64,000 nucleotides of DNA. Source: Pseudomonas hygromyciniae. GTDB lineage: Bacteria; Pseudomonadota; Gammaproteobacteria; Pseudomonadales; Pseudomonadaceae. Shown one piece after another: positions 1,830 through 44,685 of this stretch (its first letter is position 1; every line of letters starts with the position of its first letter). Position numbers and translations under genes: made by a program. The notes beneath the pieces were generated by a model that saw only the letters and a list, made by a program, of their open reading frames with translations, ran no database searches and was not told where the DNA came from. The stretch spans positions 4,772,501 to 4,836,500 of the forward strand of contig NZ_CP070506.1 of assembly GCF_016925675.1 (NCBI RefSeq), written 5' to 3'.

Positions 1830-1929
1830 ATCGCAATAAACGCAATTAGCCCTGAACCAAGCCCGCGTGCAAACGTCATCTACAGTGAACAAGCGCGGGA
1901 CTACTTTAAACGTCACGGAGAATCACACT

Positions 1930-4402: not shown

Positions 4403-4702
4403 TGTGGGAGCTGGCTTGCGTGCGGTAGACATAGTTATCCACACAACTTTCAGAAACTGACGAATTCTCCTGTGGCGAGCGGGCTTGTCGGAACGCCGCA
4501 TCGCCCGCGCTGGGCTGCGAAGCAGCCCCAAACCAGCCGCTGCGGTACATCTGATACACCGCATTCGACTTACTGGGGCCGCTTCGCAGCCCAGCGCGGG
4601 CGATGCGGCGTTCCGACAAGCCCGCTCGCCACAACAGCCCTGTCTGCTTGGTTTTAAGTTGTGTGGATAGCTATGTCTACCGCACGCAAGCCAACTCCCA
4701 CA
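4403..4702. repeat. Nested repeat: one inverted-repeat element inside another
   Basis: The outer arms, 4403-4446 and 4658-4702, are near-perfect inverted copies starting TGTGGGAGCTGGCTTGCGTG. Inside them, 4471-4633 is a complete second element with arms GTGGCGAGCGGGCTTGTCGG and GGGCTGCGAAGCAGCCCC and their complements. Short unique spacers (4447-4470 and 4634-4657) separate the two. The open frames across this stretch are by-products of the palindromes. It separates convergent gcd and the GGDEF/EAL gene. Confidence 0.9.
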
Positions 4703-4716
4703 CAAACCCACACATT

Positions 4717-7053
4717 TCAAACGGTACTGCGGTCGCGGCGCATCCATATCTCAAAGGCCATGGCATTCAGTGGCCGGCTGATCAGGTAGCCCTGGGCCGT
4801 GTCGCAATTCCATTGTTTAAGCAGCCTCAGGCTCGGCTCGAACTCCACCCCTTCGGCCACGACCTTGAGCCCCAGGTTGTGGCTCATCTCGATGGTCGAA
4901 CGCACGATCACCGCGTCGCCGCTGGTGCTGTCGAGGTTGCGCACGAAGGACTGGTCGATCTTCAGTTCCTGCACCGGCAGGCGCTGCAATTGGGCCAGGG
5001 ACGAATAGCCCGTGCCGAAATCGTCCACCGACAGGCTGATGCCACAGCCGCGCAGTTGCTCGAGGATGCGCAAGGCCTGTTCCGGGTTGTGCATGATCGC
5101 GCTTTCGGTAATCTCGAAAATCAATTGCCCAGCCAACACCCCGTGCAATTCCAGCAGCTCAGTCACGCGCGGCGCCAGCCCTTCGTCGCCCAGGTCGTCT
5201 ACCGAGATGTTCACCGACAGTTGCACCTCCAGCCCGCGCACGCTCCACTCTGCCAACTGGCGGATGGCTTCTTCAATCACCCAGTGAGTCAGGCTGGCCA
5301 TGCTGCCGGAGCGTTCGGCCAAGGGGATGAATTCGGCGGGGGACACCAGGCCCAGGGTCGGGTGCTCCCAGCGCAACAGCGCTTCGGCCTGGCGCACGTA
5401 GCCGTGGCGCAGGTCGAGCTTGGGCTGATAACACAGGAACAATTCGTCTTCGATGGCGGCACGCCGCAGGTCGCGGATCAGGCTGATCTGGCGTTGATGG
5501 GCAAGGTCACGGTCCTGTTGATAGATCTGCAAGTAGCCGGGCAGCGCGGCGGCATCGTGGCGGGCAATGGCGGCGCGGCTGATCAGTTCTTCAACCTGCA
5601 GGCCATCTTCGGGGTAGGCGGCAATGCCCATGCTCACTTCGTGGCGCAGCTCATCGCCGCCGACCCGCTGTGGCTCGGTGAGTAGGCTGTAGAGGCGGTC
5701 GGCGCGGGCCACGGCGCTGTCGAGCTTGGTGTTTTCCAGCAACACGAGGAATTCGCTGCCGGTAATGCGCGCCGCCGAATCCCCCGCCGCCAGGCTCGAT
5801 AGCAGGCAGCGGCTGGCTTCACGCAGCATTTCCTCGACGCCCTGGGGACCGAAGCCTTCGTTGATCACCCGGTAGTTTTCAATCCCCAGGTACAGCAACA
5901 CCACCGGCCGCCGCGCACTGATCGCACTGCCCAGGCGCTCCATGGCCAGGGCGCGGTTGGGTAGCCCCGTCAGGGCATCGTGCAAGGCGTTATGGGCCAG
6001 TTGCCGTTCACGCACGGCAATGCCGCTCTGCATCGCATTGAAGCCACGGGCCAGCAGGCCGAACTCATCCTTGCCACGCACCGCAACGGGTGTGCGGTAA
6101 TCACCGGCGCCGATGCGCTCGGCCGCCTGCACCAGGGCATCCAGCGGGCGCGATACGCGGCGCGCCATCAACAGTGCACCCGCCAGAGAAACCATCAAGG
6201 CCGCCAGGGCAATCCCGAGAAATTGCCGGTCCAGCGGCGCGAAGGATTGCAGGGCATGGTCCAGCGGGCTTTGCAGCAAAGCCATGACTTGCCCGCCATC
6301 GCCGGTGTTGGCCAGGGCCAGCACCTGGCTGAGAAAACGCTGGCCGCGCAATTCGCTCATCTGCGCCAATTCGTTGGTGCCCGAGTCCAGCAGCACCTGG
6401 ATGATGGCCGGGCGGTCGGCCGCGGGCTGGGTGCTGACCAAGGCACCTGGCTGGCCGTTGTCCACGCTCATGAACGACACTTCCAGATTGCTCAGGGAGC
6501 GTAATTCGGCGGCGAATACCTCATCCATGGCGAACCCCATGACCACCCGGGCGATGGGCAGCGGGTCGAGGACATCTTCCTGGACCAACAAGAAAGGGCG
6601 GCCGGCCAGGGCGACGATGAGAATTTGCAAGGTATTGCGCCGGGCATGGCGCAACGCTTGAGCATAGGGAAAGGCTTGTTGGGCGGGCACCCCATCGAGG
6701 GTACTGACGATCACCTGCCCATCGAGCCCCAGCACAAACACCTCGCTGCTGCGGATCCCCGCGCCATGGCGCTGCAGGGCCGCGAGAATCTGTGCCGGCT
6801 GGCCTGCGGCAACCGCGCGGCGAAACTGCTCGTCCACCGTGAGCCAGTCCAGCCCGTATTCCAGGCGGCGGCCACGCAAGTCCAGCAAGCGCTCGAACAC
6901 TCGACTGCCGGTCTCCAATTGCACTAGGGCCTGGTTTTCCACTGCGCGGGAGGTAGCGCCCTGGACGGCGAAATACACCGCGCCCACCACGACCAGCAGC
7001 AGTAACGCCAACACCCCCGCCAGACGGGTCTGGAAGGCGTGACGCCACTTCAT
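4717..7053 (-). CDS. Membrane protein with HAMP, degenerate GGDEF and intact EAL domains
   Basis: This 778-residue protein of the c-di-GMP system has a transmembrane helix at about 12-32, a periplasmic sensor region at about 33-275, a second helix at about 277-297, HAMP (about 300-350), GGDEF (about 355-500) and EAL (about 520-778). The GGDEF signature reads TGSEF, so cyclase activity is unlikely. The EAL domain has EALLRW, VNIS, FEITES, DDFGTGYSSL, KIDQSF and VAEGVE, as in active phosphodiesterases. ATG at 7053 is preceded by a perfect AGGAGG; in-frame starts further upstream lack one. The layout resembles LapD-like and dCACHE-linked regulators, and the ligand is unknown. The gene sits between gcd and asrA, which I recall as neighbours in P. 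putida, so it looks like an insertion. Confidence 0.88.
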   Translation of the reverse strand: MKWRHAFQTRLAGVLALLLLVVVGAVYFAVQGATSRAVENQALVQLETGSRVFERLLDLRGRRLEYGLDWLTVDEQFRRAVAAGQPAQILAALQRHGAGIRSSEVFVLGLDGQVIVSTLDGVPAQQAFPYAQALRHARRNTLQILIVALAGRPFLLVQEDVLDPLPIARVVMGFAMDEVFAAELRSLSNLEVSFMSVDNGQPGALVSTQPAADRPAIIQVLLDSGTNELAQMSELRGQRFLSQVLALANTGDGGQVMALLQSPLDHALQSFAPLDRQFLGIALAALMVSLAGALLMARRVSRPLDALVQAAERIGAGDYRTPVAVRGKDEFGLLARGFNAMQSGIAVRERQLAHNALHDALTGLPNRALAMERLGSAISARRPVVLLYLGIENYRVINEGFGPQGVEEMLREASRCLLSSLAAGDSAARITGSEFLVLLENTKLDSAVARADRLYSLLTEPQRVGGDELRHEVSMGIAAYPEDGLQVEELISRAAIARHDAAALPGYLQIYQQDRDLAHQRQISLIRDLRRAAIEDELFLCYQPKLDLRHGYVRQAEALLRWEHPTLGLVSPAEFIPLAERSGSMASLTHWVIEEAIRQLAEWSVRGLEVQLSVNISVDDLGDEGLAPRVTELLELHGVLAGQLIFEITESAIMHNPEQALRILEQLRGCGISLSVDDFGTGYSSLAQLQRLPVQELKIDQSFVRNLDSTSGDAVIVRSTIEMSHNLGLKVVAEGVEFEPSLRLLKQWNCDTAQGYLISRPLNAMAFEIWMRRDRSTV

Positions 7054-7394
7054 CCGTTTGCCTCCTGTCAGCGTGCCCGCGCCCCAGCTCAAGCGCCCTT
7101 TTGTCATAAGCATCCCTCACGACTGCAGACCCGGTGTCAAATAAACGTCCCTTTTTTCAGGACATTCGGAAAACCCAGATTAGTCCCCGCCGGGCAGAAG
7201 TAAACCTAATAAACACGGGAGATTGGCCGACATTATTTTGACGACAGATCACCGTCTAAAAGGTCCGGATTGGCCGCAAAACGCCCCTTGTTTGGTGTCG
7301 GTGCGGCGCGCCAATTCAACTTGCCCGCTCCCAAGGGGCTAGTGCAGTGAAATTCGAAAATGTCATGCAATTTGTTGCTAACCACGCGCCGCCA
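7054..7394. other. Divergent intergenic region, GGDEF/EAL gene and asrA
   Basis: About 340 bases are more AT-rich than the flanks. They must hold the promoter of the minus-strand GGDEF/EAL gene, but I found no clear -35/-10 pair. A weak hairpin CCTTTTTTCAGG lies near 7151. The asrA promoter is listed separately. Confidence 0.4.
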
Positions 7395-7422
7395 TTGAAA
7401 CCACCACTGACCTGCCCCATCT
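7395..7422 (+). promoter_or_regulatory. Sigma-32 (RpoH) type promoter for asrA
   Basis: TTGAAA at 7395-7400, 14 bases, then CCCCATCT at 7415-7422. The sigma-32 consensus is CTTGAAA, 11-15 bases, CCCCATnT, so this is almost exact. It would start transcription near 7430, giving a leader of about 25 bases before the ATG at 7453. Confidence 0.75.
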
Positions 7423-7452
7423 AACCTCCATACTTCACCATGCAGGTGCCCC

Positions 7453-9873
7453 ATGAGCGACCAGCAAGAATTCCCCGATATCGACCTCAACGACTACGCC
7501 GACCCCGAAAACGCCGAAACTGCGTCGTCCAACACCGGCCTGGCCCTGCCTGGGCAGAACCTGCCGGACAAGGTCTATATCATCCCGATCCACAACCGCC
7601 CGTTCTTCCCGGCGCAAGTGTTGCCGGTGATCGTCAATGAAGAGCCCTGGGCCGAGACCCTGGAGCTGGTGAGCAAATCCGACCATCACTCCCTGGCCCT
7701 GTTCTTCATGGACACCCCGCCCGAAGACCCACGGCATTTCGACACCTCCGCCCTGCCGCTGTACGGCACCCTGGTCAAGGTGCATCACGCCAGCCGCGAG
7801 AACGGCAAGCTGCAATTTGTCGCCCAGGGCCTGACCCGTGTGCGCATCAAGACCTGGCTCAAGCACCACCGCCCACCGTACCTGGTGGAAGTCGAATACC
7901 CGCACCAGCCCAGCGAGCCGACCGATGAGGTCAAGGCCTACGGCATGGCGCTGATCAATGCGATCAAGGAACTGCTGCCGCTCAACCCGCTGTACAGCGA
8001 AGAGTTGAAGAACTACCTCAACCGCTTCAGCCCCAACGATCCGTCGCCCCTGACTGACTTCGCCGCCGCGCTGACTTCGGCCACCGGTAACGAGTTGCAG
8101 GAAGTGCTGGACTGCGTGCCGATGCTCAAGCGCATGGAAAAAGTGCTGCCGATGCTGCGCAAAGAGGTTGAAGTCGCGCGCCTGCAAAAGGAAATTTCCG
8201 CCGAGGTAAACCGCAAGATCGGCGAGCACCAGCGCGAGTTCTTCCTCAAGGAACAGCTCAAGGTGATCCAGCAGGAGCTGGGGCTGACCAAGGACGATCG
8301 CAGCGCTGACGTCGAGCAGTTCGAGCAACGCCTGGAAGGCAAGGTGTTGCCGGCCCAGGCGCAGAAACGCATCGATGAAGAACTCAACAAGCTGTCGATC
8401 CTCGAGACCGGCTCGCCGGAATACGCGGTGACGCGTAACTACCTGGACTGGGCCACCTCGGTGCCGTGGGGCGTGTATGGCGAGGACAAACTCGACCTCA
8501 AGCACGCGCGCAAAGTCCTGGATAAACACCATGCGGGCCTGGATGACATCAAGAGCCGCATCCTCGAGTTCCTCGCCGTCGGTGCCTATAAAGGCGAAGT
8601 CGCCGGTTCCATCGTGCTGCTGGTGGGCCCGCCGGGCGTGGGCAAGACCAGCGTCGGCAAATCCATTGCCGAGTCCCTGGGGCGGCCGTTCTACCGCTTC
8701 AGCGTCGGCGGCATGCGCGACGAGGCCGAGATCAAGGGCCATCGCCGCACCTACATCGGTGCCCTGCCGGGCAAGCTGGTGCAGGCGCTCAAGGATGTCG
8801 AAGTGATGAACCCGGTGATCATGCTCGACGAGATCGACAAGATGGGCCAGAGCTTCCAGGGCGACCCGGCGTCGGCGTTGCTGGAAACCCTCGATCCGGA
8901 ACAGAACGTCGAATTCCTCGACCACTACCTGGATCTGCGCCTGGACTTGTCCAAAGTGCTGTTCGTGTGTACCGCCAACACCCTGGATTCGATCCCGGGC
9001 CCGTTGCTGGACCGCATGGAAGTGATTCGCCTGTCGGGCTATATCACCGAAGAAAAAGTCGCCATCGCCAAGCGTCACCTGTGGCCAAAACAACTGGAAA
9101 AGGCCGGCGTGGCCAAGACCAGCCTGAGCATCACCGACGGCGCCCTGCGTGCCCTGATCGACGGCTATGCCCGCGAAGCCGGGGTGCGTCAGTTGGAGAA
9201 ACAACTGGGCAAACTGGTGCGCAAGGCGGTGGTCAAGCTGCTGGATGAGCCGGATTCGGTAATCAAGATCGGCAACAAGGACCTGGAAAGCTCCCTGGGC
9301 ATTCCAGTGTTCCGCAATGAGCAAGTGCTGTCCGGTACCGGTGTGATCACCGGACTGGCCTGGACCAGCATGGGCGGCGCGACCTTGCCGATCGAGGCGA
9401 CGCGCATCCACACGCTCAACCGTGGCTTCAAGCTCACCGGGCAGTTGGGTGAGGTGATGAAGGAATCCGCCGAAATCGCCTACAGCTACATCAGCTCCAA
9501 CCTGAAGTCGTTTGGCGGTGATCCGAAGTTCTTCGACGAAGCCTTCGTGCACCTGCACGTACCGGAAGGCGCCACGCCCAAAGACGGCCCGAGTGCCGGG
9601 GTGACCATGGCCAGTGCGTTGCTGTCGCTGGCACGTAACCAGCCGCCGAAAAAAGGCGTGGCCATGACTGGCGAACTGACCCTGACCGGGCATGTACTGC
9701 CGATTGGCGGCGTGCGTGAGAAGGTGATTGCGGCGCGGCGCCAGAAGATTCACGAGTTGATCCTGCCAGAGCCGAACCGTGGCAGCTTCGAGGAGTTGCC
9801 GGACTATCTGAAAGAGGGCATGACGGTGCACTTTGCCAAGCGGTTTGCGGATGTGGCGAAAGTGTTGTTCTGA
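7453..9873 (+). CDS. asrA: ATP-dependent Lon-family serine protease (AsrA type)
   Basis: This 806-residue Lon-type AAA+ protease has an N-terminal Lon substrate-binding domain (from about residue 35, VYIIPIHNRPFFPAQVLP), a coiled-coil region near 240-290, Walker A GPPGVGKTSVGKS near 392, Walker B VIMLDEIDKM, and a C-terminal protease domain with the Ser-Lys dyad (DGPSAGVTM near 714 and REKVIAARR near 757). It differs from housekeeping Lon in its acidic N-terminus and matches the second Pseudomonas Lon, AsrA, which is linked to the heat-shock response and aminoglycoside tolerance. A near-consensus sigma-32 promoter lies just upstream, which fits that role. A chagasin-like inhibitor gene follows, as in P. 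aeruginosa. Confidence 0.85.
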   Translation: MSDQQEFPDIDLNDYADPENAETASSNTGLALPGQNLPDKVYIIPIHNRPFFPAQVLPVIVNEEPWAETLELVSKSDHHSLALFFMDTPPEDPRHFDTSALPLYGTLVKVHHASRENGKLQFVAQGLTRVRIKTWLKHHRPPYLVEVEYPHQPSEPTDEVKAYGMALINAIKELLPLNPLYSEELKNYLNRFSPNDPSPLTDFAAALTSATGNELQEVLDCVPMLKRMEKVLPMLRKEVEVARLQKEISAEVNRKIGEHQREFFLKEQLKVIQQELGLTKDDRSADVEQFEQRLEGKVLPAQAQKRIDEELNKLSILETGSPEYAVTRNYLDWATSVPWGVYGEDKLDLKHARKVLDKHHAGLDDIKSRILEFLAVGAYKGEVAGSIVLLVGPPGVGKTSVGKSIAESLGRPFYRFSVGGMRDEAEIKGHRRTYIGALPGKLVQALKDVEVMNPVIMLDEIDKMGQSFQGDPASALLETLDPEQNVEFLDHYLDLRLDLSKVLFVCTANTLDSIPGPLLDRMEVIRLSGYITEEKVAIAKRHLWPKQLEKAGVAKTSLSITDGALRALIDGYAREAGVRQLEKQLGKLVRKAVVKLLDEPDSVIKIGNKDLESSLGIPVFRNEQVLSGTGVITGLAWTSMGGATLPIEATRIHTLNRGFKLTGQLGEVMKESAEIAYSYISSNLKSFGGDPKFFDEAFVHLHVPEGATPKDGPSAGVTMASALLSLARNQPPKKGVAMTGELTLTGHVLPIGGVREKVIAARRQKIHELILPEPNRGSFEELPDYLKEGMTVHFAKRFADVAKVLF

Positions 9874-34814: not shown

Positions 34815-35450
34815 CTAAGGCACCATCCCGCAGTTACGCGCATAGGCAAACAAATCCACATCGGTGGAAATGCACAGGCGTTGCATCGCGGTACTTTTCT
34901 GTTTGCTGATCGTGGAAATACTGCGATTGACCCGTGCGGCGATCTGGCTGACGGTCAGGCCGCTGGCCAGCATCCGCACCACTTCCCGCTCTTTGCCCGA
35001 CAACTGCGGCAGTTGTGACTGATCCCCCGTCCCGGCTTCCACCAATTGCACCCGCAGGCACTCGCTGGCAAAGGTCTGGCCGCCGATCACGGCGTTGATG
35101 GCCTGCGGCAACTCCCTGGCCGACGCGCTCTTGGCCACGATGGCGCGGGCGCCATGGGCGAGGGAGGCACGCAGGGTGGCGACATTGGCGAACATGGTGA
35201 CCAGGATAACCGGCAAGTCCGGATACTGACGGGCCAGCAGGCTCAACAAGCCATAGCCATCAGCCTGCTGCCCTCCGGGCATGGCGAAGTCGGTGACCAG
35301 AACATCGCACGGCGTGGTACTCAACAGCCTGAGCAGCGCGTCGGGGCCATCGGCCTCCCCCACCACTTTGCAGCGACCGTTCGCCTCGATCACCACTCTC
35401 TGCCCGATACGTACAATGGGATGATCGTCAGCAATAATTACTCGAAGCAT
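34815..35450 (-). CDS. NarL/FixJ-family response regulator
   Basis: This 211-residue protein has a receiver domain with the acidic pair (IIADDHP), phospho-acceptor Asp in VLVTDFAMPGG near residue 55 and Lys in IVAKSAS. A LuxR-type helix-turn-helix follows (LSGKEREVVRMLASGLTVSQIAARVNR, read in parts LSGKEREVVRMLASG and TVSQIAARVNRSISTISKQK). The architecture matches RcsB, BvgA and RocA1-type regulators, which receive phosphate from hybrid kinases with Hpt domains and control fimbriae. It lies beside a REC-Hpt gene on the same strand and close to a fimbrial operon, so a role in switching those fimbriae is likely. Confidence 0.88.
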   Translation of the reverse strand: MLRVIIADDHPIVRIGQRVVIEANGRCKVVGEADGPDALLRLLSTTPCDVLVTDFAMPGGQQADGYGLLSLLARQYPDLPVILVTMFANVATLRASLAHGARAIVAKSASARELPQAINAVIGGQTFASECLRVQLVEAGTGDQSQLPQLSGKEREVVRMLASGLTVSQIAARVNRSISTISKQKSTAMQRLCISTDVDLFAYARNCGMVP

Positions 35451-35660: not shown

Positions 35661-36452
35661 TTACAAACTGCGCAAATACTCAAGGCACCGCCGCAAGTCC
35701 GCCCGGAATGCCTGCAGCGCTGAAGCGTTCGCCAACACGCCGTCGGCGTGAATTTGCTCAATCAGCTTCACACCTCTGAACTCAAGGTCTGCTCCCCCCA
35801 AAAAAGCCAGACTGCCTACCAGGCGATGTAGCCGCTGGGTGGTCAATGGAGTGCTCAAGGTGCGACAGGCTTGATCGAGGAACGCAAAGTCTTCCCAGGC
35901 CTCATCCAGCAGGCTGGCGAGCATCTGGTCGACGACCCGCTCATTACCGAAGGTTTGCACCAGGTGGGCACGCGTTGGCCATGCCCCCGCCGTGGGCCTG
36001 CCCCACACCGGCGCGATGCCCGGCAGCCAGCGCGCCAATGTCGCTTGCAGTTGCTCCAGCGCCAGCGGCTTGAGCAGCCAGGCGTCCATGCCGGCGTCGC
36101 GGCACCGTTGCGGATCGTCATTTTGCAGATTGGCAGTCAAGGCAATGATCGGCACGCGCTTGAGCCCCTTGCGGCACTCATGCTGGCGAATGGCGCGGGC
36201 CATGCGATAGCCATCCATCTGCGGCATTTGGCAGTCGCTGATAATCAGGTCGAAAGGCCGCTTGATAACCGCCAACAGCCCCTGGCAGCCATCGCCCACG
36301 GCTTCATGCCCAACGCCCAGCTTTTGCAGAAAGTAGCCCAATAGCGCGCGATAAGCGGAGTGGTCATCCACCACCAATACGTTCAGGTGCGCTACGGGGG
36401 GAGGCTCCGACGCTCGGCCCTCCCCGGTGGTTGAACGGACCAGAGAGCCCAT
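35661..36452 (-). CDS. Free-standing receiver-Hpt protein
   Basis: This 263-residue protein has a receiver domain (about 22-140) with VLVVDDHSAYR, acceptor Asp in LIISDCQMPQMDG and Lys in WLLKPLAL. A C-terminal Hpt domain has phospho-His in LHRLVGSLAFLGGADL near residue 210. This is the arrangement of the last two modules of BvgS/RcsC-type hybrid kinases, but here without sensor or kinase domains. ATG at 36452 has AAGGGG about 4-9 bases upstream; an in-frame GTG 6 bases earlier is less likely. Phosphate probably passes from an unlinked kinase to this protein and then to the NarL-type regulator downstream, 210 bases away. Confidence 0.87.
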   Translation of the reverse strand: MGSLVRSTTGEGRASEPPPVAHLNVLVVDDHSAYRALLGYFLQKLGVGHEAVGDGCQGLLAVIKRPFDLIISDCQMPQMDGYRMARAIRQHECRKGLKRVPIIALTANLQNDDPQRCRDAGMDAWLLKPLALEQLQATLARWLPGIAPVWGRPTAGAWPTRAHLVQTFGNERVVDQMLASLLDEAWEDFAFLDQACRTLSTPLTTQRLHRLVGSLAFLGGADLEFRGVKLIEQIHADGVLANASALQAFRADLRRCLEYLRSL

Positions 36453-36954
36453 GTACACCCCTTGCGCGCTATCGGACTGAAGACTGGCAGCCCCCAGAGA
36501 TCACAACCTCCGGCAGCGCTGGCGTAATAGGCAAGACGCCACGGTGCAGCACCGCGAAAAGAACGCATGTAACTATCATCGCCGCAAAAATATAGCCTTT
36601 GGGATGTTCCTAAGCCGATACAACAACTACGAAAAACAACTTTCCTACAGCACTGAAAACTTATTCTTACAGACTTCCCGCAAGACGCCCCATTGTCGTA
36701 TTTGTTGTATTTGCCCCTCGCCAAGCCCTCGCTAAATTGCGCCCCCACCCCAGAGAGGGACGGCTCGCCACCCGTCGTGCCAGCCACCAACAAACCCTGC
36801 CCCCGCAAAGCGCCCGCCCATTGAGGCCAGGCCTTGCCGTGCATCTTTTTTATCAATCAGCCTTGCAGTGGACAATTGAAATGAACACCTCCCGATACCT
36901 GATGAGCGCCACCCCCAATGTCCTTTCGACACCCGCGGATCAGGTCCTGTAACC
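36453..36954. other. Divergent control region, phosphorelay gene and fimbrial operon
   Basis: About 500 bases, clearly more AT-rich than their surroundings between 36560 and 36735, hold no supported gene. They should contain the promoters of the REC-Hpt gene (minus) and the fimbrial operon (plus). The inverted repeat at 36617-36711 is the only strong pattern. Short open frames here lack ribosome sites. Confidence 0.55.
36617..36711. promoter_or_regulatory. Imperfect 17-bp inverted repeat, possible regulator sites
   Basis: GATACAACAACTACGAA at 36617-36633 and AATACAACAAATACGAC on the opposite strand at 36695-36711 agree at 14 of 17 positions. The centres are 78 bases apart, about seven helical turns. 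This could place two dimers of the NarL-type regulator on one face, or support looping. Confidence 0.5.
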
Positions 36955-37569
36955 ATGAAGACTTTTGCCTCTAGCCTCATGCTCGCGTTGCTGGTCACAC
37001 CTTCGGTATTTGCAGCCAGTTCCATCGACCTGGCCGTCAGGGGGAAGATCACCCCTAGCGCCTGCACGCCAGCATTCGCCGGCAGCAACATCATCGAACA
37101 CGGAAAAATCGCCGCCAAAGACCTGGTGCAAAACAATCCCACGTACCTGCCCAAGGCCAACGTGAAATTCTCGGTCACCTGCGAGGCCAGCACGCTTTTC
37201 GCGATCAAGCCCATCGACAACCGCATCGGCACCTCCACCTCTCCCTTCAACTTCGGCCTGGGATTTGTCAACGGCGACAAAAAGCTCGGCAGCTTCTATC
37301 TGACGCCCATGAACATGCTGGCCGACGGTATCGCCGTGCAGCCAATCGCATCAAGCAACGGAGGCAACACCTGGTATGCCGAATGGCGATGGGAACTGTT
37401 GACCCTGTGGGGTGCGGGCACCATGGACGACGCGTCCACCCTGCTGCCATCCAAAGTGTTGGAGATAGACCTTGAGGTCGGTACCACCATCGGCCGTGCC
37501 GATCAGTTTGACCTGAGCGAAGAGCTCGACATCGACGGCTCCGGCACCCTGGAAGTGGTGTACCTGTAG
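36955..37569 (+). CDS. DUF1120 fimbrial subunit 1
   Basis: This 204-residue secreted pilin-like protein is the first gene of the fimbrial operon. The signal peptide ends SVFA-AS. An N-terminal strand with alternating hydrophobics (SSIDLAVRGKITPSAC) suits donor-strand exchange. Cys 37 and Cys 76 are 39 residues apart and probably form a disulfide. The C-terminus is LDLSEELDIDGSGTLEVVYL, ending Tyr-Leu. DUF1120 subunits occur in E. coli as YhcE/YhcF, beside a chaperone and usher. It probably forms part of the fibre shaft. The next gene starts 32 bases later. Confidence 0.85.
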   Translation: MKTFASSLMLALLVTPSVFAASSIDLAVRGKITPSACTPAFAGSNIIEHGKIAAKDLVQNNPTYLPKANVKFSVTCEASTLFAIKPIDNRIGTSTSPFNFGLGFVNGDKKLGSFYLTPMNMLADGIAVQPIASSNGGNTWYAEWRWELLTLWGAGTMDDASTLLPSKVLEIDLEVGTTIGRADQFDLSEELDIDGSGTLEVVYL

Positions 37570-37601
37570 CCCCCGTTTCACTCACAAGGAAGGTCCATTG
37601 G

Positions 37602-38222
37602 ATGAAACTCTCCAGCGCAATACCTCTGGTTGCACTGTTGTTCGCCACCGCGTCGCTATCGGTGGCCGCCAGTGACACCGAGCTGGTCGTCAAGGGGGCG
37701 ATCACTCCCAGCGCCTGCGAACCGATGATTTCCGGCGAAGGGTTGATCGATTTTGGAAAAATGTCAGTCAAGCAACTCAATACCGACGCCTACACCAGCC
37801 TGCCTCGGGAAACCCTGGATTTTCAAGTGCTGTGCGAGGGACCGACCTTTTTCACTTTCAACACCATTGATAACCGCTCTGGCACCTCTGCCCACAACGA
37901 GAGCTATCACGGCCTGGGCATGACACCCAACGGCGAAAAACTGGGGGGGGCCGGATTTGGTATCTACCAACTGGTCGCCGATAACGTGAGCAGACGCCCC
38001 ATTATCTCAACGGACGGCGGCATGACCTGGCAGCGCGCCTCGCTTGTCAGCCCCCAGGTGTTGACGGCTGTCGCCACCGACGGCGAGCTGGCGCCCATTG
38101 CCGTGCAGGTGCTGAAGGCACAGCTTTCGCTGTTCACCCACATCGCCCCCTCCAGAAGCCTGACGCTAATTGACGAAGTCCCCCTCGATGGCAACGCCAC
38201 CGTGCAAGTCAATTACCTCTGA
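37602..38222 (+). CDS. DUF1120 fimbrial subunit 2
   Basis: This 206-residue subunit has the same plan: signal ending SVA-AS, donor strand SDTELVVKGAITPSAC, Cys 39 and Cys 78, and C-terminus LTLIDEVPLDGNATVQVNYL. A strong AAGGAAGG ribosome site lies before the ATG. It contains a run of eight G (37943-37950) in the KLGGAG region, a possible slippage site. Compared with subunits 1 and 3 it is more divergent in the middle, so it may be an adaptor or minor subunit. Confidence 0.84.
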   Translation: MKLSSAIPLVALLFATASLSVAASDTELVVKGAITPSACEPMISGEGLIDFGKMSVKQLNTDAYTSLPRETLDFQVLCEGPTFFTFNTIDNRSGTSAHNESYHGLGMTPNGEKLGGAGFGIYQLVADNVSRRPIISTDGGMTWQRASLVSPQVLTAVATDGELAPIAVQVLKAQLSLFTHIAPSRSLTLIDEVPLDGNATVQVNYL

Positions 38223-38259
38223 CGGCTTGAACAGCCCCACTTGAAAGGAACTCACCCCG

Positions 38260-38883
38260 ATGAAAATCCTGCTGACCACCCTTGCCACCAGCGTGCTGCT
38301 GCTCGGTTCCACCGCCACCTTCGCCGCCTCCACGGTCGACCTGGTCGTCAAGGGCAAGATCATTCCTGCGGCCTGCACCCCCGAGCTGTCCAGGGGTGGC
38401 GTGATCGACCACGGCAAGATCTCCGCCAAGGACCTGCGCCCGGATAACCCGACACAAATCGGCAACCACGTGCTCACGATGACGGTCGACTGCGACGCGC
38501 CGATCCTGTTTGCCCTGCATTCCATCGACAACCGCGCCGCCTCGTCATTGACGCGCGAGCTCTATGGCCTGGGGTTCATCAACGGCGACCAGAAACTTGG
38601 CTGGTACAACCTGCAAATGCTCAACCTGGTGGTCAATGACAGCATCGTGGCGCAACCGATTGCCTCCGCTGACCAGGGCAATATCTGGTACCGCGAAAAC
38701 CACTGGGAACCTGGCATATACATGTCTGCGGCCTCGATGGATGACGACACCCAACCCCTGCCGGTCGAGAAACTGAGGCTGGACCTGCAGGTAATCAGCA
38801 CCATCGCGCGCACCGACGGCCTGGACCTGAGCAATGAAGTGAACATCGACGGCTCCGCCACCCTTGAAGTGAAGTACCTGTAA
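38260..38883 (+). CDS. DUF1120 fimbrial subunit 3
   Basis: This 207-residue subunit resembles subunit 1 most closely (GLGFINGDQKLG against GLGFVNGDKKLG; VAQPIAS against VQPIASS). The signal ends TFA-AS, the donor strand is STVDLVVKGKIIPAAC, and Cys 39 and Cys 78 pair. The C-terminus is LDLSNEVNIDGSATLEVKYL. Subunits 1 and 3 probably arose by duplication. An AAGGA site precedes the ATG. Confidence 0.85.
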   Translation: MKILLTTLATSVLLLGSTATFAASTVDLVVKGKIIPAACTPELSRGGVIDHGKISAKDLRPDNPTQIGNHVLTMTVDCDAPILFALHSIDNRAASSLTRELYGLGFINGDQKLGWYNLQMLNLVVNDSIVAQPIASADQGNIWYRENHWEPGIYMSAASMDDDTQPLPVEKLRLDLQVISTIARTDGLDLSNEVNIDGSATLEVKYL

Positions 38884-38950
38884 CCATGCCTGCCCATGCC
38901 CTGGACTTGTCCCAGCATGGGCTGTGCCTACCTGTGCCAGGGACCGACCG

Positions 38951-39574
38951 ATGAACACACGCGCCCATTTTGTTGCAGTGCTGCTGTCTGTGGCCGTCAC
39001 GATCGAGGCCAATGCGATGTCCCATGTTGACCTCACGGTGACCGGCCGCTTGACCCCGGATGCTTGCCAGATCGAGCTATCTGACCAAGGGACAATCGAA
39101 CACGGAGAAATCCCCACCTACCGGCTCAATGCTCACCAACCCACGGCGTTGCCCAGCCAGATGCTGGACCTTACGGTGATCTGTGCAAGGCCGATGCTGT
39201 TCGCGCTGGTCGGCATCGACAATCGCCAAGACTCGTCGCCGTCCGCCGACACGTTCGGCCTGGGTGTGAACATTCATGCCCCGGACCAGGCGCTGGGTGC
39301 CGTGACCCTGACCTATCGCGCCACCTTGGGGGATTTGCAACCGATGCAGGTGCTGGCCTCCAGCGACAACGGCGAAACCTGGACCCCACAGGCCAATGCC
39401 CATCCCCATGCCTATATGGGCTTTGCCCCGGCCGGAGCGCGCCAGCCGGAGTTCATCAGCCAACTGTTTACCCAACTGTGGGTGGATACCGCCATCAATG
39501 CCGCACGCTACCTGACCCTGGATCAGGAAGTGCCGCTGGACGGCTCCATCGTCCTGGACCTGCGCTACCTCTGA
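38951..39574 (+). CDS. DUF1120 fimbrial subunit 4
   Basis: This 207-residue subunit starts MNTRAHFVAVLLSVAV, with CAGGGA upstream; an in-frame ATG at 38924 is also possible but would place charged residues before the signal. The donor strand is SHVDLTVTGRLTPDAC, with Cys 39 and Cys 78, and the C-terminus is LTLDQEVPLDGSIVLDLRYL. It is the most divergent single-domain member and lies right before the chaperone gene, 40 bases away. Confidence 0.83.
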   Translation: MNTRAHFVAVLLSVAVTIEANAMSHVDLTVTGRLTPDACQIELSDQGTIEHGEIPTYRLNAHQPTALPSQMLDLTVICARPMLFALVGIDNRQDSSPSADTFGLGVNIHAPDQALGAVTLTYRATLGDLQPMQVLASSDNGETWTPQANAHPHAYMGFAPAGARQPEFISQLFTQLWVDTAINAARYLTLDQEVPLDGSIVLDLRYL

Positions 39575-39614
39575 CTCCCGCCCTTTTTATGTTGCCCCAA
39601 CGGAAACCGCTGTC

Positions 39615-40319
39615 ATGACCACGACATTCTCAACGACCGCTGCCGGTCTCATTGCTTTGCTGCTCGTGCTCGGTAATCAAGTGAAAGCCGACGGCATGGT
39701 GCCCGACACCTCCGTGGTGATCGTTCATGAAGCCGACGGCGAAACCTCCGTGTCGGTGACCAATACCGACAGCCAACTGTCGCTGCTGCACGTCACCTTG
39801 CAAGACATTCCCGAAGACACCGAGCCCTTGTTGCTGGTGACGCCACCGCTGGCCCGGGTAGAGGCGTCCAAATCGCAACTGGTGCGTTTCATCCTGCAAA
39901 ACAAGACACCACTGCGCACCCAGCGCCTCAAGCGTGTGGTGTTTGAAGGCATGCCCGTGGGCCGCGCCGCACCGGCGGCCGGGCACGCCCGAGTGGGTGT
40001 TACCGTGCGTCAGAATCTGCCGCTGATCGTGCACCCCAAGGGCCTGCCACCGAATCGCACACCCTGGACCGACCTGACCTGGACCCTGCGCGACGGCCAG
40101 TTGCACGTGCGCAACGACACGCCCTACGTGGTGCGCATGGCCCAGGACCTGCGCCTGCTGCCCGGCGATGGCAGGGCCATGCTGCCGCGCAACTATGTGT
40201 TACCGGGCGAAAACCTGAGTGTGCCGGCCACCGGCGGCCCAGCCACCAAAGTCCGGCTGCAGCCGGCCACGGTGTACGGGTTTGCCGTCAAAGCCTACGA
40301 AGCACCTCTGAGCCTCTGA
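39615..40319 (+). CDS. Periplasmic fimbrial chaperone, PapD-like
   Basis: This 234-residue protein has a signal peptide ending VKA-DG, then two Ig-like domains. The first has VVIVHEADGETSVSVTNTDS, PPLARVEASKSQLVRFIL (the F1-G1 region is short, FGS-like) and RVVFEGMP. The domain join VTVRQNLPLIVHPKG replaces the usual lysine region of PapD with R-Q-x-L-P, as in many YhcA-type chaperones. It would cap the DUF1120 subunits and deliver them to the usher. Confidence 0.88.
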   Translation: MTTTFSTTAAGLIALLLVLGNQVKADGMVPDTSVVIVHEADGETSVSVTNTDSQLSLLHVTLQDIPEDTEPLLLVTPPLARVEASKSQLVRFILQNKTPLRTQRLKRVVFEGMPVGRAAPAAGHARVGVTVRQNLPLIVHPKGLPPNRTPWTDLTWTLRDGQLHVRNDTPYVVRMAQDLRLLPGDGRAMLPRNYVLPGENLSVPATGGPATKVRLQPATVYGFAVKAYEAPLSL

Positions 40320-40439
40320 CGGAATAACCACAGACGCCGCACAACAGATCGGCGCTGGATATAGAAGTGACGGCGCATCGACCGTCACCGCAACGCCTGC
40401 CAGCACCGGGACAACCGGGCCAGGACGTTCACCCTGTGA

Positions 40440-42869
40440 GTGCCTTGCGTGAAAACAGTATTGAATTACCGTGACGGCGTAGCCGTGCCCGGCCTACCTG
40501 CGCGCCAAGCTGTGCCCATGGCATTGCTGCTGTGGCTGCTGCCAATGGCCCCGACCTGGGCCACCGGCTTTGACGCCCAAACCCTGGAGCAGCGCGGCAT
40601 TGATCCGCAACTGGCCAACCTGTTGCTGGACGCCCCGCGCTTCAGCGCCGGGCAGCATGCCGTCAGCCTGCAGGTCAACGGCCAGCGGCGCGGTCGACTG
40701 CAGGTCAGTTTCGATCAACAGGGCAACCTGTGCTTCGATCGGACCCTGCTCGACGCGGCCAACCTGGTCATCCCTGATGGCACTGCGCATTGCCATGACT
40801 TCCTCGCGCAGTATCCACAAAGCCTGGTGGAGCCAGACCCGGCCACGCTCAGCGTAGCGCTGGTGGTGCCGACCGACGCCCTGCGTCCGGTGCCACAGGA
40901 TATTTCGGGCTATGAAACCGGCGGCTTCGCCGGCTTGCTCAATTACGACCTCAGTGGCTTCTACAACCGCTATGGCGACGACGCCAGTCGATTTGGCTCG
41001 GCCAACACCGAGGTGGGGTTCAATGCCGGTGACTGGATCGTGCGCAGCCGCCAGGTCCAGACCTGGCAGGATGGCCAGTCCAGCAGCACCCACCTGGAGG
41101 CCTACGCCCAGCGCACGTTCGCCAGCCACCAGGCAGTGCTCCAGGCCGGGCAGATCAGCCTGTACAACCCGGTGCTGGCCGGGGCGCAGATTACCGGCGT
41201 GCAGGTCCTCACCGAACACGCCCTTCAAGAGCAAGGCCAGGGCGCGGTGATCGAGGGCATTGCCAACAGCCCGGCACAAGTGGAAGTACGGCAGAACGGT
41301 GCGTTGATTCATTCCACGGTGGTGCCCGCCGGGCCGTTTGCCCTCAACGATGTGCGCCGCCTCAATACCCGTTCAGATGTCGAAGTCACAGTCAGGGAAA
41401 GTGTCGGCGGTGACCGGCGCTTTACCGTACCCGCCGCGATGCTCGGCCTCGGGTTGCCGGCACCGGGCTACGCGGTGGCGGTCGGTCGGGTGCGCAATCT
41501 CGGCGACACCGAGGGCGACGCGCCGTGGGTGGCAAGTGCCGGCTGGACAGGCGCCGTGCATCCGCAACTGACCCTGGGCGGCGGGGTATTGGCGGCCAGC
41601 GAATACGGTTCGGCAGGTTTGAGCCTGGGTTGGCTGCCGTGGCTGGACAGCCAATTGCAGTTGTCGACGCAACTGTCCAACGCCCATGCCCGGGAAAAGG
41701 TGTCCGGCGTGCAGACCGACCTTGCCTGGTCCCAGCGCCTGAGTGAACGGTGGTCCTTGAGTGCCAGTAACTCCTGGCGCAGCGCGGGCTATCGCGAGCT
41801 GGAAGAAAGCACCTACGCACGCAACGAGCAGTCGCAACGCTCACGTTATCGCGATCAACAAAGCCTCAACCTGGGCTGGTCCTACCCTCGGCTGGGCGCC
41901 TTCAGTGCCGGGTTTTCGCGCTCGGCCAACTTCGCCGGAGACAGCAGCAGCCGTGCCCTGCTGTCCTGGGGTGCCAGCGTCGGTGCGGTCTCGTTGTCGG
42001 CCAGCGCCGAATGGCAAATGGGCGGCCACGCACAACAGGACAACGCGGTGTACCTGAACATCAGCGCGCCCCTGGGCGAGAACCGCAGGTTACGCAGTTG
42101 GCTACGCCACAACGGCGGCGAAAACCGCAGCGGCCTGGGGCTGACCGAACAGATCGACGAGCAACTGAGCTATCGCGTCAGCGCCGAGCGGGATTCGCGC
42201 GATCGTCAGGTCGAAACCTCCGTAGGCCTGTCGGCATTGCCGCGCTACAGCCAGTTGGATCTGAGCTACAGCCGTTCCGACGCCGAGCGTTCAAGTTATC
42301 AGGGCGGCGCTCGGGGTGGAGTGGTGATGCATGGCAGCGGCGTGACGTTTTCCCCCTATCCGGTGCGCGACACCTTTGCCCTGGTGTCCGTGGGCGACAT
42401 GAGCGGTATCCGCATCAACACCCCCAGCGGCCCGGTCTGGACCGACTGGCAAGGCCAGGCGGTGGTGTCGCAGGTCAACGCCTATGGCCGCAGCCCGGTG
42501 GAAGTCCAAACCCGCTCGCTGCCGCGCAACGCCGATATCACCAATGGCCTGGCCATGATTACGGCCGGGCGCGGAGCGGTGGATCGGGTCGAATTTGGCG
42601 TGGGCCTGACCCGCCGCGTCCTGCTCACCGTCAGCACCGAGCAGGGCACACCGTTGGCGGCGGGCGCGTCAGTCAATACTGCCGAGGGTGAGTTCATCAC
42701 CCTGGTCCAGGAAGGCAGCCAGGTGTTCCTGCCCAACGTCATCGATCAACCGCCCCTGTGGATAACTCTGCCGGGGGGCCAACGCTGCCAACTGCGCTAC
42801 ACACTTGCGCAAAAGGCCGACCCCTCGGTGTATTTCGAAACTGCCCCGGCCCGTTGCCACGCGCCTTGA
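40440..42869 (+). CDS. Fimbrial outer-membrane usher
   Basis: This usher of up to 809 residues secretes and assembles the subunits. The N-terminal chaperone-binding domain begins FDAQTLEQRGIDPQLANLLL and has the Cys pair NLCFD..HCHDF. The 24-strand barrel follows, with a plug region near TVPAAMLGLGLPAPGYAVAV. The C-terminal domain holds the second Cys pair (GGQRCQLRY..PARCHAP). The start is uncertain: GTG at 40440, GTG at 40449 (a TGAG lies 8 bases before it) or ATG at 40518, which begins a clean signal MALLLWLLPMAPTWA. A 120-base gap separates it from the chaperone, the widest in the operon. Confidence 0.9.
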   Translation: MPCVKTVLNYRDGVAVPGLPARQAVPMALLLWLLPMAPTWATGFDAQTLEQRGIDPQLANLLLDAPRFSAGQHAVSLQVNGQRRGRLQVSFDQQGNLCFDRTLLDAANLVIPDGTAHCHDFLAQYPQSLVEPDPATLSVALVVPTDALRPVPQDISGYETGGFAGLLNYDLSGFYNRYGDDASRFGSANTEVGFNAGDWIVRSRQVQTWQDGQSSSTHLEAYAQRTFASHQAVLQAGQISLYNPVLAGAQITGVQVLTEHALQEQGQGAVIEGIANSPAQVEVRQNGALIHSTVVPAGPFALNDVRRLNTRSDVEVTVRESVGGDRRFTVPAAMLGLGLPAPGYAVAVGRVRNLGDTEGDAPWVASAGWTGAVHPQLTLGGGVLAASEYGSAGLSLGWLPWLDSQLQLSTQLSNAHAREKVSGVQTDLAWSQRLSERWSLSASNSWRSAGYRELEESTYARNEQSQRSRYRDQQSLNLGWSYPRLGAFSAGFSRSANFAGDSSSRALLSWGASVGAVSLSASAEWQMGGHAQQDNAVYLNISAPLGENRRLRSWLRHNGGENRSGLGLTEQIDEQLSYRVSAERDSRDRQVETSVGLSALPRYSQLDLSYSRSDAERSSYQGGARGGVVMHGSGVTFSPYPVRDTFALVSVGDMSGIRINTPSGPVWTDWQGQAVVSQVNAYGRSPVEVQTRSLPRNADITNGLAMITAGRGAVDRVEFGVGLTRRVLLTVSTEQGTPLAAGASVNTAEGEFITLVQEGSQVFLPNVIDQPPLWITLPGGQRCQLRYTLAQKADPSVYFETAPARCHAP

Positions 42870-42880
42870 GGACGACTGCC

Positions 42881-44017
42881 ATGCCCCTTACCCGTTTGCG
42901 CCACTTGAGTTTCTGGCTATTGATCGGCATTGCCGGCACCGCCCATGGGCTGGAGGAATGCCAACTCAACCTCAGCGAACCGTCGGTGGATTTCGGCCTG
43001 ATGAGCCGCCTGTCCCAAAACGACAGCGCGCCCGAACGCCTGCTGGGCGAGCGTCGGCTGAACCTGACGTTCAATTGCCCCCAGGCCGGCGACTTGAGTC
43101 TGTTCTACCGCGCCCTCGCAGCCTCGACTGAGCGCCTGCAATTTACCGAGCACGGCAGCTACCAGATCGAGGTCAGTCACGGCACCCTGGACGGGCAGGC
43201 GGTGGAGTTGGGCCTGATTCCAGGCTTGCGCCAGCCACCGGTGAGTAGCGGCACCGTGCTCAACTGGCGCAGCGGGCATGGGATCGCACCGCTCGAAAAC
43301 GGGGCCGTGCGGGCGGGCAAAAACCTGTCGCTGCAATTGACCCTGCGCGCCTGGGCCGATCCTGCGGCCACCCATGTGCGTGACGCTACCACCTGGGAAG
43401 TCTCTGGCCTCTTGTTCAGCGCCAGCCACGGGCGCTATCGGGAGTTGGCGCTGCGGGCGCACTTTGCCCCGGTCGCCTGCCACCCGTCGTTGTCCGACCA
43501 AGGAGTGGTGGACTACGGAACTCTGTTCGCCAAGAACCTCAACCCCACCAGCGAAACGCCCTTGCCCATCCGCACCCTGCGCCTGGGTGTGACGTGCGAT
43601 GCACAAACGCGCTTTGCCTTGCGCATGCATGACAACCGCGATGGCTCGGCCACCGGCGGCACCGATGAAACCTCCTATGGCCTGGACCTGGACGCCAGCC
43701 ACAACAAAATCGGGCGCTTTTACATGACCATCGACCCCGCAGAGTTCAGTGCCGACACCCTGGGCACCCTGTACCGGACTGACTCCACCAGTAACGGCGC
43801 GGCCTGGAGCAGTTCCAGCGCACGCCAGATTCCCATGGGCGCCAACAGCTATATGGGCTTTACCGACAGAAGCGGCCTGACCACCGGCCCCGTGGCGATC
43901 CAGACCCTGGCCGGCACCGTGCGGATCAAGACCTACCTGGCCCCCATGCAGTCGCTGGACCTGCGCCAGGTGGTGCACATCAACGGTTCCGGCACTCTCG
44001 AAATCATCTACCTGTAA
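42881..44017 (+). CDS. Two-domain DUF1120 subunit, probable tip adhesin
   Basis: These 378 residues make two related domains. The signal ends AHG; domain 1 runs from about 24 to 183 (Cys 27, Cys 66) and domain 2 from about 187 to 378 (Cys 200, Cys 239). Both share C-x-x-x-LS-x-x-x-VD-(Y/F)-G and a 39-residue Cys spacing. Domain 1 begins four residues before its first Cys, so it has no donor strand and could not fill another subunit. The strand YRELALRAHFAPVAC before domain 2 looks like the donor strand of the single-domain pilins. This suits a tip adhesin. ATG at 42881 has GAGGA upstream and lies 11 bases after the usher stop. Confidence 0.82.
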   Translation: MPLTRLRHLSFWLLIGIAGTAHGLEECQLNLSEPSVDFGLMSRLSQNDSAPERLLGERRLNLTFNCPQAGDLSLFYRALAASTERLQFTEHGSYQIEVSHGTLDGQAVELGLIPGLRQPPVSSGTVLNWRSGHGIAPLENGAVRAGKNLSLQLTLRAWADPAATHVRDATTWEVSGLLFSASHGRYRELALRAHFAPVACHPSLSDQGVVDYGTLFAKNLNPTSETPLPIRTLRLGVTCDAQTRFALRMHDNRDGSATGGTDETSYGLDLDASHNKIGRFYMTIDPAEFSADTLGTLYRTDSTSNGAAWSSSSARQIPMGANSYMGFTDRSGLTTGPVAIQTLAGTVRIKTYLAPMQSLDLRQVVHINGSGTLEIIYL

Positions 44018-44040
44018 CCCGACCCCACGAGGCGTGCGCC

Positions 44041-44685
44041 ATGAAACTCGTTGCCCTACCCCACCTGTTGCTGCTGGCCTGTGCGCAATCGGCCCTGGCC
44101 GTGTCGACGGTGGACCTGAGCGTCCACGGCCAGATCATTCCCAGCGCCTGTACGCCGCTGCTGTCCAGCGGCGGTCTGATCGACCACGGCAAGATCTCCC
44201 GCCAAGACCTGAACCTTGCGCAAGGCACGCGCCTGCCGCTCAAAACCCTGCACCTGAGCGTCAACTGCACCGGGCCCAGTCGCTATGCATTGCGCATGCG
44301 CGACAACCGCGACGGCTCGGCCACGGTCAATAGCGAGATTTACTACGGGTTGGGATTCGACACCGCCGGCAATCGCCTCGGCCTGTACTCCATGAGCTTC
44401 GACCCGCGCCAGACCCAGGCCGACAGCACTGCGCAGATCTACGGCACCGAATCCACCACCGGCGGCTTGGGCTGGCGCACCGCCAACCTGAACCCCATCG
44501 ACATCGGTGCCAACAGCTACCTGGGCTTTACCGACATCGAGGGCAGTGTCGCCGGGCCGTCAGCCATCACCACCCTGAGCACCACCGTGCAGATCCACAC
44601 GGTTATCAATGCCCGGCAGAACCTGGACTTGAGCGTTGAAACCGACCTCGATGGCTCGGCGACGCTGGAAGTGGTGTACCTCTAG
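44041..44685 (+). CDS. DUF1120 fimbrial subunit, last gene of the operon
   Basis: These 214 residues have a signal ending ALA-VS, donor strand STVDLSVHGQIIPSAC, Cys 37 and Cys 76, and C-terminus LDLSVETDLDGSATLEVVYL. Its core is closest to domain 2 of the tip protein (ALRMRDNRDGSAT against ALRMHDNRDGSAT; GANSYLGFTD against GANSYMGFTD). It therefore probably shares recent ancestry with that domain and may sit next to it in the fibre. Its stop codon overlaps the stop of the convergent transporter gene at a CTAG. Confidence 0.85.
   Translation: MKLVALPHLLLLACAQSALAVSTVDLSVHGQIIPSACTPLLSSGGLIDHGKISRQDLNLAQGTRLPLKTLHLSVNCTGPSRYALRMRDNRDGSATVNSEIYYGLGFDTAGNRLGLYSMSFDPRQTQADSTAQIYGTESTTGGLGWRTANLNPIDIGANSYLGFTDIEGSVAGPSAITTLSTTVQIHTVINARQNLDLSVETDLDGSATLEVVYL

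Follow-up and report, generated by a model that had tools for sequence, protein, structure and literature searches.

How does a chaperone-usher fimbria form its tip when nearly all of its subunits belong to a single family, DUF1120? The question is raised by a locus of Pseudomonas hygromyciniae (NCBI RefSeq assembly GCF_016925675.1) that occupies positions 36955–44685 of the 64,000-nucleotide stretch of DNA analyzed here (contig NZ_CP070506.1, 4,772,501 to 4,836,500, referred to hereafter as the window). Its eight genes lie on the plus strand with all frames open, in the order that an earlier note made from the DNA alone had described: four pilins (p1–p4), a chaperone, an usher, a two-domain protein (T2), and a last pilin (p8). 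We put at roughly 70% the probability that the locus encodes a beta-class fimbria in which T2 would form a cis-complemented, covalently joined pair of subunits at the tip, a reading that draws on sequence comparison and predicted models.

The general nature of the system is clear from the families involved, a PapD-type chaperone, a PapC/FimD-type usher, and pilins being encoded together in one same-strand operon. The chaperone matches PapD_N at 66.8 bits (PapD_C falls under its cut-off, 19.5 vs 22.8) and passes the curated cut-off of 183 for NCBIfam PRK09918, the YhcA family, with 248.3 bits. The usher scores 306.1 bits against Pfam Usher, in addition to matching PapC_N and PapC_C, and 649.9 bits against NCBIfam PRK15304, the YhcD family, which is below the curated cut-off of 723 (next-best model 212.4; Escherichia coli YhcD itself 1273.4). 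The window usher groups with E. coli YhcD in both of our usher trees (support 0.965 in one, 90.9/75 in the other), which were rooted on EcpC and set the pair apart from FimD, SfmD, ElfC, YraJ, HtrE, YehB, YbgQ, and two further ushers of the same genome; the references were thus eight E. coli K-12 ushers besides YhcD (not the pseudogene YfcU), short of StjB and of a full class set. We assign the locus to the beta class of chaperone-usher fimbriae, as a large member, in the usher-based scheme of Nuccio and Baumler as cited in PMC3559732.

Where the earlier note counted seven DUF1120 domains, a Cys pair exactly 39 residues apart is indeed present in all seven, while Pfam (PF06551, gathering cut-off 21) recognizes six, in the products of genes 1–4, 7, and 8 (6/6 proteins, 39.6–63.8 bits); the Tyr-Leu end that it gave to the secreted proteins holds for the six secreted DUF1120 proteins and not for the chaperone, which ends otherwise. 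Both are family features, and chance does not account for them: when the 451 distinct pilins with at least 190 residues from 79 named loci and the window are compared, the pair stands at its expected place in 408 and the Tyr-Leu end in 390 (the named loci come from an usher scan and are those in named Pseudomonas genomes, among the best 80 of 84 relatives, with close relatives favored). Pilins generally have Tyr as their last residue but one. The Cys residues of the E. coli relative GltF, at 44 and 87, are 43 apart, so the 39-residue spacing is not universal in DUF1120. The five single-domain pilins of the window are 33–47% identical to each other, in keeping with the claim of several distinct subunits in one chaperone-usher fimbria.

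The two-domain protein T2 and its predicted linker strand

In 78 of the 79 named loci there is exactly one T2, and its gene immediately follows that of the usher (the exception, L119, has a short frame). It had been described as a two-domain DUF1120 pilin; this description survives in that both domains have the Cys pair, and fails in that the second domain is the sole Pfam DUF1120 of gene 7, the first alone having no Pfam match and being a distant homologue that only profile comparison connects with the DUF1120 pilins. The nearer relatives of the first domain are proteins that stand alone in other loci, typified by E. coli YhcE: hhalign gives a probability of 99.9 for the T2 first domain against the stand-alone YhcE-like proteins and 93.4 against DUF1120 pilins, with 98.3 between the latter two groups (the sets were 12 stand-alone proteins, one of them E. 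coli YhcE, a random 60 pilins, and, for the T2 first domain, 30 of 68 rows in A1). Against NCBIfam PRK15301 T2 scores 69.1 bits, under the curated cut-off of 226, and E. coli YhcE itself scores 54.3, so this cut-off excludes both. Judged by sequence, T2 is the YhcE domain joined to a DUF1120 pilin that is the counterpart of YhcF.

The N-terminus of T2 bears on its place in the fibre. Taking cleavage sites by eye, the distance from the start to the first Cys is about four residues in T2 and about sixteen in the pilins. In chaperone-usher assembly the first subunit to enter becomes the tip; because T2 appears to have no N-terminal extension to donate, only the first-in position would be left to it, and we regard it as probably the tip protein.

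Predicted structures bear on how the groove of the T2 first domain may be filled. In an AlphaFold2 model of p3 (mean predicted local distance difference test, pLDDT, 93.9) the N-terminal extension is disordered and free and no strand follows the last one; all 50 structural matches listed are chaperone-usher subunits. The single-domain subunit modeled therefore has the two marks of such a subunit, a missing last immunoglobulin (Ig) strand and an N-terminal donor extension, as the earlier note had anticipated, and a complete fold was not seen. In the T2 model, computed as a single chain, the linker between the domains forms a strand (163–172) that follows strand 147–156 (block 161–170 at pLDDT 93), so that a stretch disordered in the lone pilin is ordered here. 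Most stand-alone YhcE-like relatives end one strand before this last predicted strand of the T2 first domain. The second domain has no strand after its last one (348–354 of 355 residues).

Together these features suggest the following course of assembly, based on family membership and predicted fold. The DUF1120 subunits, which are incomplete Ig-like domains bearing free N-terminal extensions, would be folded by the PapD-type chaperone and linked at the usher through donor-strand exchange. T2 would enter first and form the tip, presenting a second domain with an open groove and having no N-terminal extension to give, while its linker—the pilin's own extension—would fill the groove of the first domain in the same chain. 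The two most distal subunits would thereby be covalently joined and one exchange step skipped, the rest of the fibre being built from the five single-domain pilins. Surface attachment is the likely use of such a fibre.

A first alternative, which we consider unlikely, would make T2 an ordinary two-domain tip adhesin of the FimH or CupB6 sort, in which the first domain is complete, binds a receptor, and has a last strand of its own, and the linker serves simply to connect. The overall architecture would fit, but the last predicted strand of the first domain is, by its sequence pattern, a pilin N-terminal extension, and most of the stand-alone relatives stop before it. The two readings overlap, in that a cis-complemented tip could also bind a ligand.

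We consider it improbable that this strain carries a decayed or silent locus and makes no fibre. A scan of 36459..36954 gave no promoter-like match, another usher of the same genome is in pieces, and an insertion sequence interrupts yhcE of E. coli K-12; however, the scan was limited to sigma-70-type sites, all eight frames are open, and the gene order as well as the Cys pairs are conserved from one named locus to the next. Still less probable is a tandem pilin in the shaft or an adaptor, within a fibre devoid of a special tip: both T2 domains are DUF1120-related, and the beta class is said, in PMC3373541 on Salmonella, to lack a typical adhesin gene, but T2 starts so close to its first Cys that it has no extension to give, and it occurs once per locus against 1 to 12 single-domain pilins.

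The proposal that YhcE and T2 are tips, and that T2 is a naturally self-complemented pair, is new as far as the literature searched goes, which took in few subscription papers. Were YhcE the tip, whether fused or on its own, the beta class would gain a candidate adhesin and a first testable model of assembly.

Glycine at the putative donor-strand position

A second observation concerns the residue seven places ahead of the pair's first Cys (Cys minus 7), which we take to be the P4 position, where donor strands acting in trans presumably need Gly. Gly occupies this place in 531 of the 532 usable distinct pilins, the remaining one having Ser (547 distinct pilins, 15 without a usable pair), and E. 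coli FimA, FimF, FimG, and GltF likewise have Gly. Among 93 distinct T2 proteins it is never Gly (Ala in 92, Trp once), the linker of the window T2 having Ala. The same division is seen in L152, a locus from another family, where T2 has Ala and four of five pilins have Gly; the fifth has Arg, with a Gly one place further. A requirement for glycine at P4 was not found in the literature searched.

The substitution can be read in two ways: either cis action of the strand led to the loss of Gly, or the loss reflects the fit of the strand to a YhcE-type groove. Weighing against the first is E. coli YhcF (L130 6043–6759), a separate pilin after YhcE that has Val at Cys minus 7; since YhcF lacks Gly, we do not ascribe the loss in the fused strand to cis action. 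In L155, where the YhcE-like protein is also separate, the pilin behind it has Gly. Should the loss reflect fit to a YhcE-type groove, YhcF would be the partner of YhcE, like the second domain of T2, and its Val may be the sign of a donor to YhcE.

At odds that we judge a little better than even, and going by sequence patterns and models, the large beta-fimbriae would have the counterparts of YhcE and YhcF welded together with the donor strand in cis, the loss of Gly would mark the strand that fills the tip groove, both in T2 and in E. coli YhcF, and YhcE, whose published function is unclear, would be the tip of the class. A fused tip, if real, would be a natural experiment on donor-strand exchange, and comparison of fused and separate tips could show which residues are constrained by the exchange step and not by the finished fold.

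Composition, distribution, and control of the loci

The single-domain pilins differ in how far they keep to a place in the operon, relatives of p2, p3, p4, and p8 tending to do so and those of p1 less. Of the best 40 relatives in each case, 38 of those of p4 are the last pilin before the chaperone and 23 of those of p2 are at upstream position 2 of 4, whereas those of p1 are scattered (13 at 3 of 4, 7 at 1 of 4), which counts against the idea that every subunit has its own set place. Conservation among the five is highest in p8, with a median best-relative identity per locus of 66.7% vs 43.7–52.4% for p1–p4.

An Asp-box-like motif, S-x-[DN]-x-G-x-[TI]-W, occurs in p1–p4 (37351–37374, 38007–38030, 38665–38688, and 39359–39382) and not in p8 or T2. 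Its loose form is present in 294 of the 451 pilins, vs 3.25 in shuffles, and in 1 of 78 T2 proteins, and it falls 93–99 residues past the first Cys in 278 of the 279 pilins that have both the motif and a usable Cys pair. No DUF1120 structure came up in profile searches against PDB sequences, in line with the earlier note, whose author knew of no structural work on DUF1120 fibres: T2 gave no matches, and the best matches of the pilins were sialidases (best E 0.002) by way of the short Asp-box motif. We rejected a sialidase-like function, as these matches are weak and confined to the Asp-box-like stretch.

Large beta loci are common in Pseudomonas. At least three single-domain pilin genes are present in 75 of the 79 named loci (range 1 to 12, commonest five), which answers the earlier call for a search of such loci, and PF06551 matches occur in 51 of 149 Pseudomonas genomes, that of P. 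hygromyciniae included, with at least three in 35 (counted per genome, not per locus). In 22 of the 79, at least one extra DUF1120 pilin gene lies on the opposite strand, beyond the RcsB-like gene described below.

A second sample, of 40 stretches from genomes of the genus (partly overlapping the named ones) plus the second locus of the P. hygromyciniae genome, resolves into two layouts, L020 being irregular. The T2 layout is found in 29 other stretches and the window; the minimal one, found in eleven loci (L008–L012, L014–L019), consists of a pilin, chaperone, usher, and stand-alone YhcE-like protein, the last not being found in L018 or, in L019, next to one of its two sets. Both layouts occur in the P. 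hygromyciniae genome, with one locus each, the minimal one being L008 (C1:5794000–5812000, 4635–9202, minus strand), and the same genome has an usher gene broken over several frames that match separate parts of the family (C1:5227114–5228735). In the second of the usher trees all fused-tip loci included, L152 too, fall in one clade (99.7/96) with all split ones outside, so that one fusion event would explain the pattern.

Beyond the genus the searches returned little. Profile A2 matched only the P. hygromyciniae genome among 370 genomes of the class (no more than ten candidates were scored in each); PF06551 matched 1 of 276 genomes, and a YhcD search found ushers in 13 of 276, none outside the P. 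hygromyciniae genome above 30% identity. In the family to which G295 belongs, PF06551 matched 2 of 149 genomes. Genome G617, of another family, holds L152–L154: L152 is a large T2-type locus, and L153 and L154 are further places that have two DUF1120 open reading frames (ORFs) each, with no chaperone or usher found within the 18 kb stretches. None of 14 control genomes, E. coli included, matched PF06551, which for E. coli may mean that the control strain lacks the locus or that the search misses it; yhcE matches occur in 1133 of 5426 E. coli genomes.

Upstream of the pilins, the divergent RcsB-like gene has NCBIfam RcsB (PRK10840) as its best model at 150.7 bits, below the cut-off of 235, and a divergent relative in 77 of the 79 named loci. 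The receiver protein next to it has relatives in 58 of the 79, with the histidine phosphotransfer (HPt)-like motif in 50 of those 58; we read its HRLVGS motif, presumptively, as HPt. The pair suggests, by sequence, a phosphorelay, and from adjacency it probably controls the operon. No kinase was found among the next upstream genes, which are GST-like, GIY-YIG, and SnoaL-like. Elsewhere in the window are a PQQ-type dehydrogenase (1867–4341, plus strand) and a HAMP-GGDEF-EAL protein (4717–7113, minus strand).

Table 1. Features of the fimbrial locus and its divergent neighbors, in window coordinates. The starts of gene 4 (38951), the usher (about 40518), and T2 (42881) are likely starts chosen by eye, downstream of the longest-ORF starts.
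Feature	Position	Strand	Basis or remark
RcsB-like response regulator (receiver + LuxR-type helix-turn-helix), divergent from fimbrial genes	34815..35450	-	Pfam Response_reg + GerE
Receiver protein with C-terminal HPt-like motif (HRLVGS)	35661..36458	-	Pfam: Response_reg only
Intergenic, presumed site of fimbrial promoter	36459..36954	.	Position alone
DUF1120 pilin p1	36955..37569	+	PF06551 42 bits; Cys 37/76; Tyr-Leu end
DUF1120 pilin p2	37602..38222	+	PF06551 48.5 bits
DUF1120 pilin p3	38260..38883	+	PF06551 63.8 bits; AlphaFold2 model
DUF1120 pilin p4	38951..39574	+	PF06551 39.6 bits; ORF opens 38924
PapD-type periplasmic chaperone	39615..40319	+	PapD_N; NCBIfam PRK09918
Outer-membrane usher	40518..42869	+	Usher, PapC_N, PapC_C; ORF opens 40440
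T2, two-domain protein, probable tip: YhcE-like domain + DUF1120 pilin	42881..44017	+	ORF opens 42758
T2 first domain, Cys pair 39 apart, without N-terminal extension	42950..43429	+	hhalign; no Pfam match
T2 linker (RYRELALRAHFAPVAC region), homologue of pilin N-terminal extension; proposed cis donor strand	43430..43480	+	
T2 second domain, DUF1120 pilin domain	43481..44014	+	PF06551 57 bits
DUF1120 pilin p8	44041..44685	+	PF06551 54.1 bits

Comparison with known fimbriae

The closest named relative is E. coli Yhc, placed in the beta class in PMC5216030, where GltF is already termed a putative subunit. Its two DUF1120 genes, as the earlier note had it, are gltF (155.3 bits) and yhcF (161.1 bits), and the order in E. 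coli GF124.3 is gltF-yhcA-yhcD-yhcE-yhcF; gltF, whose name comes from the operon for glutamate synthase, thus codes for one of the DUF1120 pilins of Yhc. Yhc and the window share, in the same order, a DUF1120 pilin, PRK09918 chaperone, PRK15304 usher, YhcE, and a DUF1120 pilin. They differ in that Yhc encodes two pilins, with YhcE as a protein of its own, whereas the window has five single-domain pilins and YhcE fused to a sixth, and in that no RcsB-like gene is annotated within the E. coli stretch compared.

For Salmonella Stj the comparison runs through models and not Stj sequences: the T2 first domain, the pilins, and the usher find their best NCBIfam matches among PRK15301–15304, presumably the Stj set, and the 189 positions of the PRK15301 model suggest, in contrast to T2, a separate YhcE-type protein. 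Stj is placed in the beta class, as the only Salmonella beta-fimbria, in PMC3373541 and PMC9238391.

The window locus had been read as a larger and little-studied fimbrial type. We discarded the view that it is a new one because the beta class, though little studied, is known and a large locus is already in print, the Cronobacter sakazakii BAA-894 beta-fimbriae ESA_03512–03521, with seven subunit genes, one chaperone, and one usher (PMC7545074, available text). The likeness to the window, that of one large beta locus to another, is drawn from this published description only; ESA_03514, which adjoins the usher and goes unmentioned in that text, would be the YhcE-like protein. At the small end, the fimACD genes of P. 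fragi D12, followed after the usher by an unannotated fimbrial protein, may be a minimal locus, going by the description in PMC13188923.

At the level of the tip protein, the T2 first domain can be set beside engineered self-complemented FimA (PDB 6s09, 2jty), which has its donor strand in the same chain and aligns with T2 residues 2–176 and 3–174; those are laboratory constructs, whereas T2 would be natural and confined to the tip. FimH, CfaE, and CupB6, among the best structural matches of T2, share with it a first domain lacking an N-terminal extension and followed by a pilin domain, but in T2 this first domain has sequence kinship with the pilins, and the extension of the next domain provides its last predicted strand.

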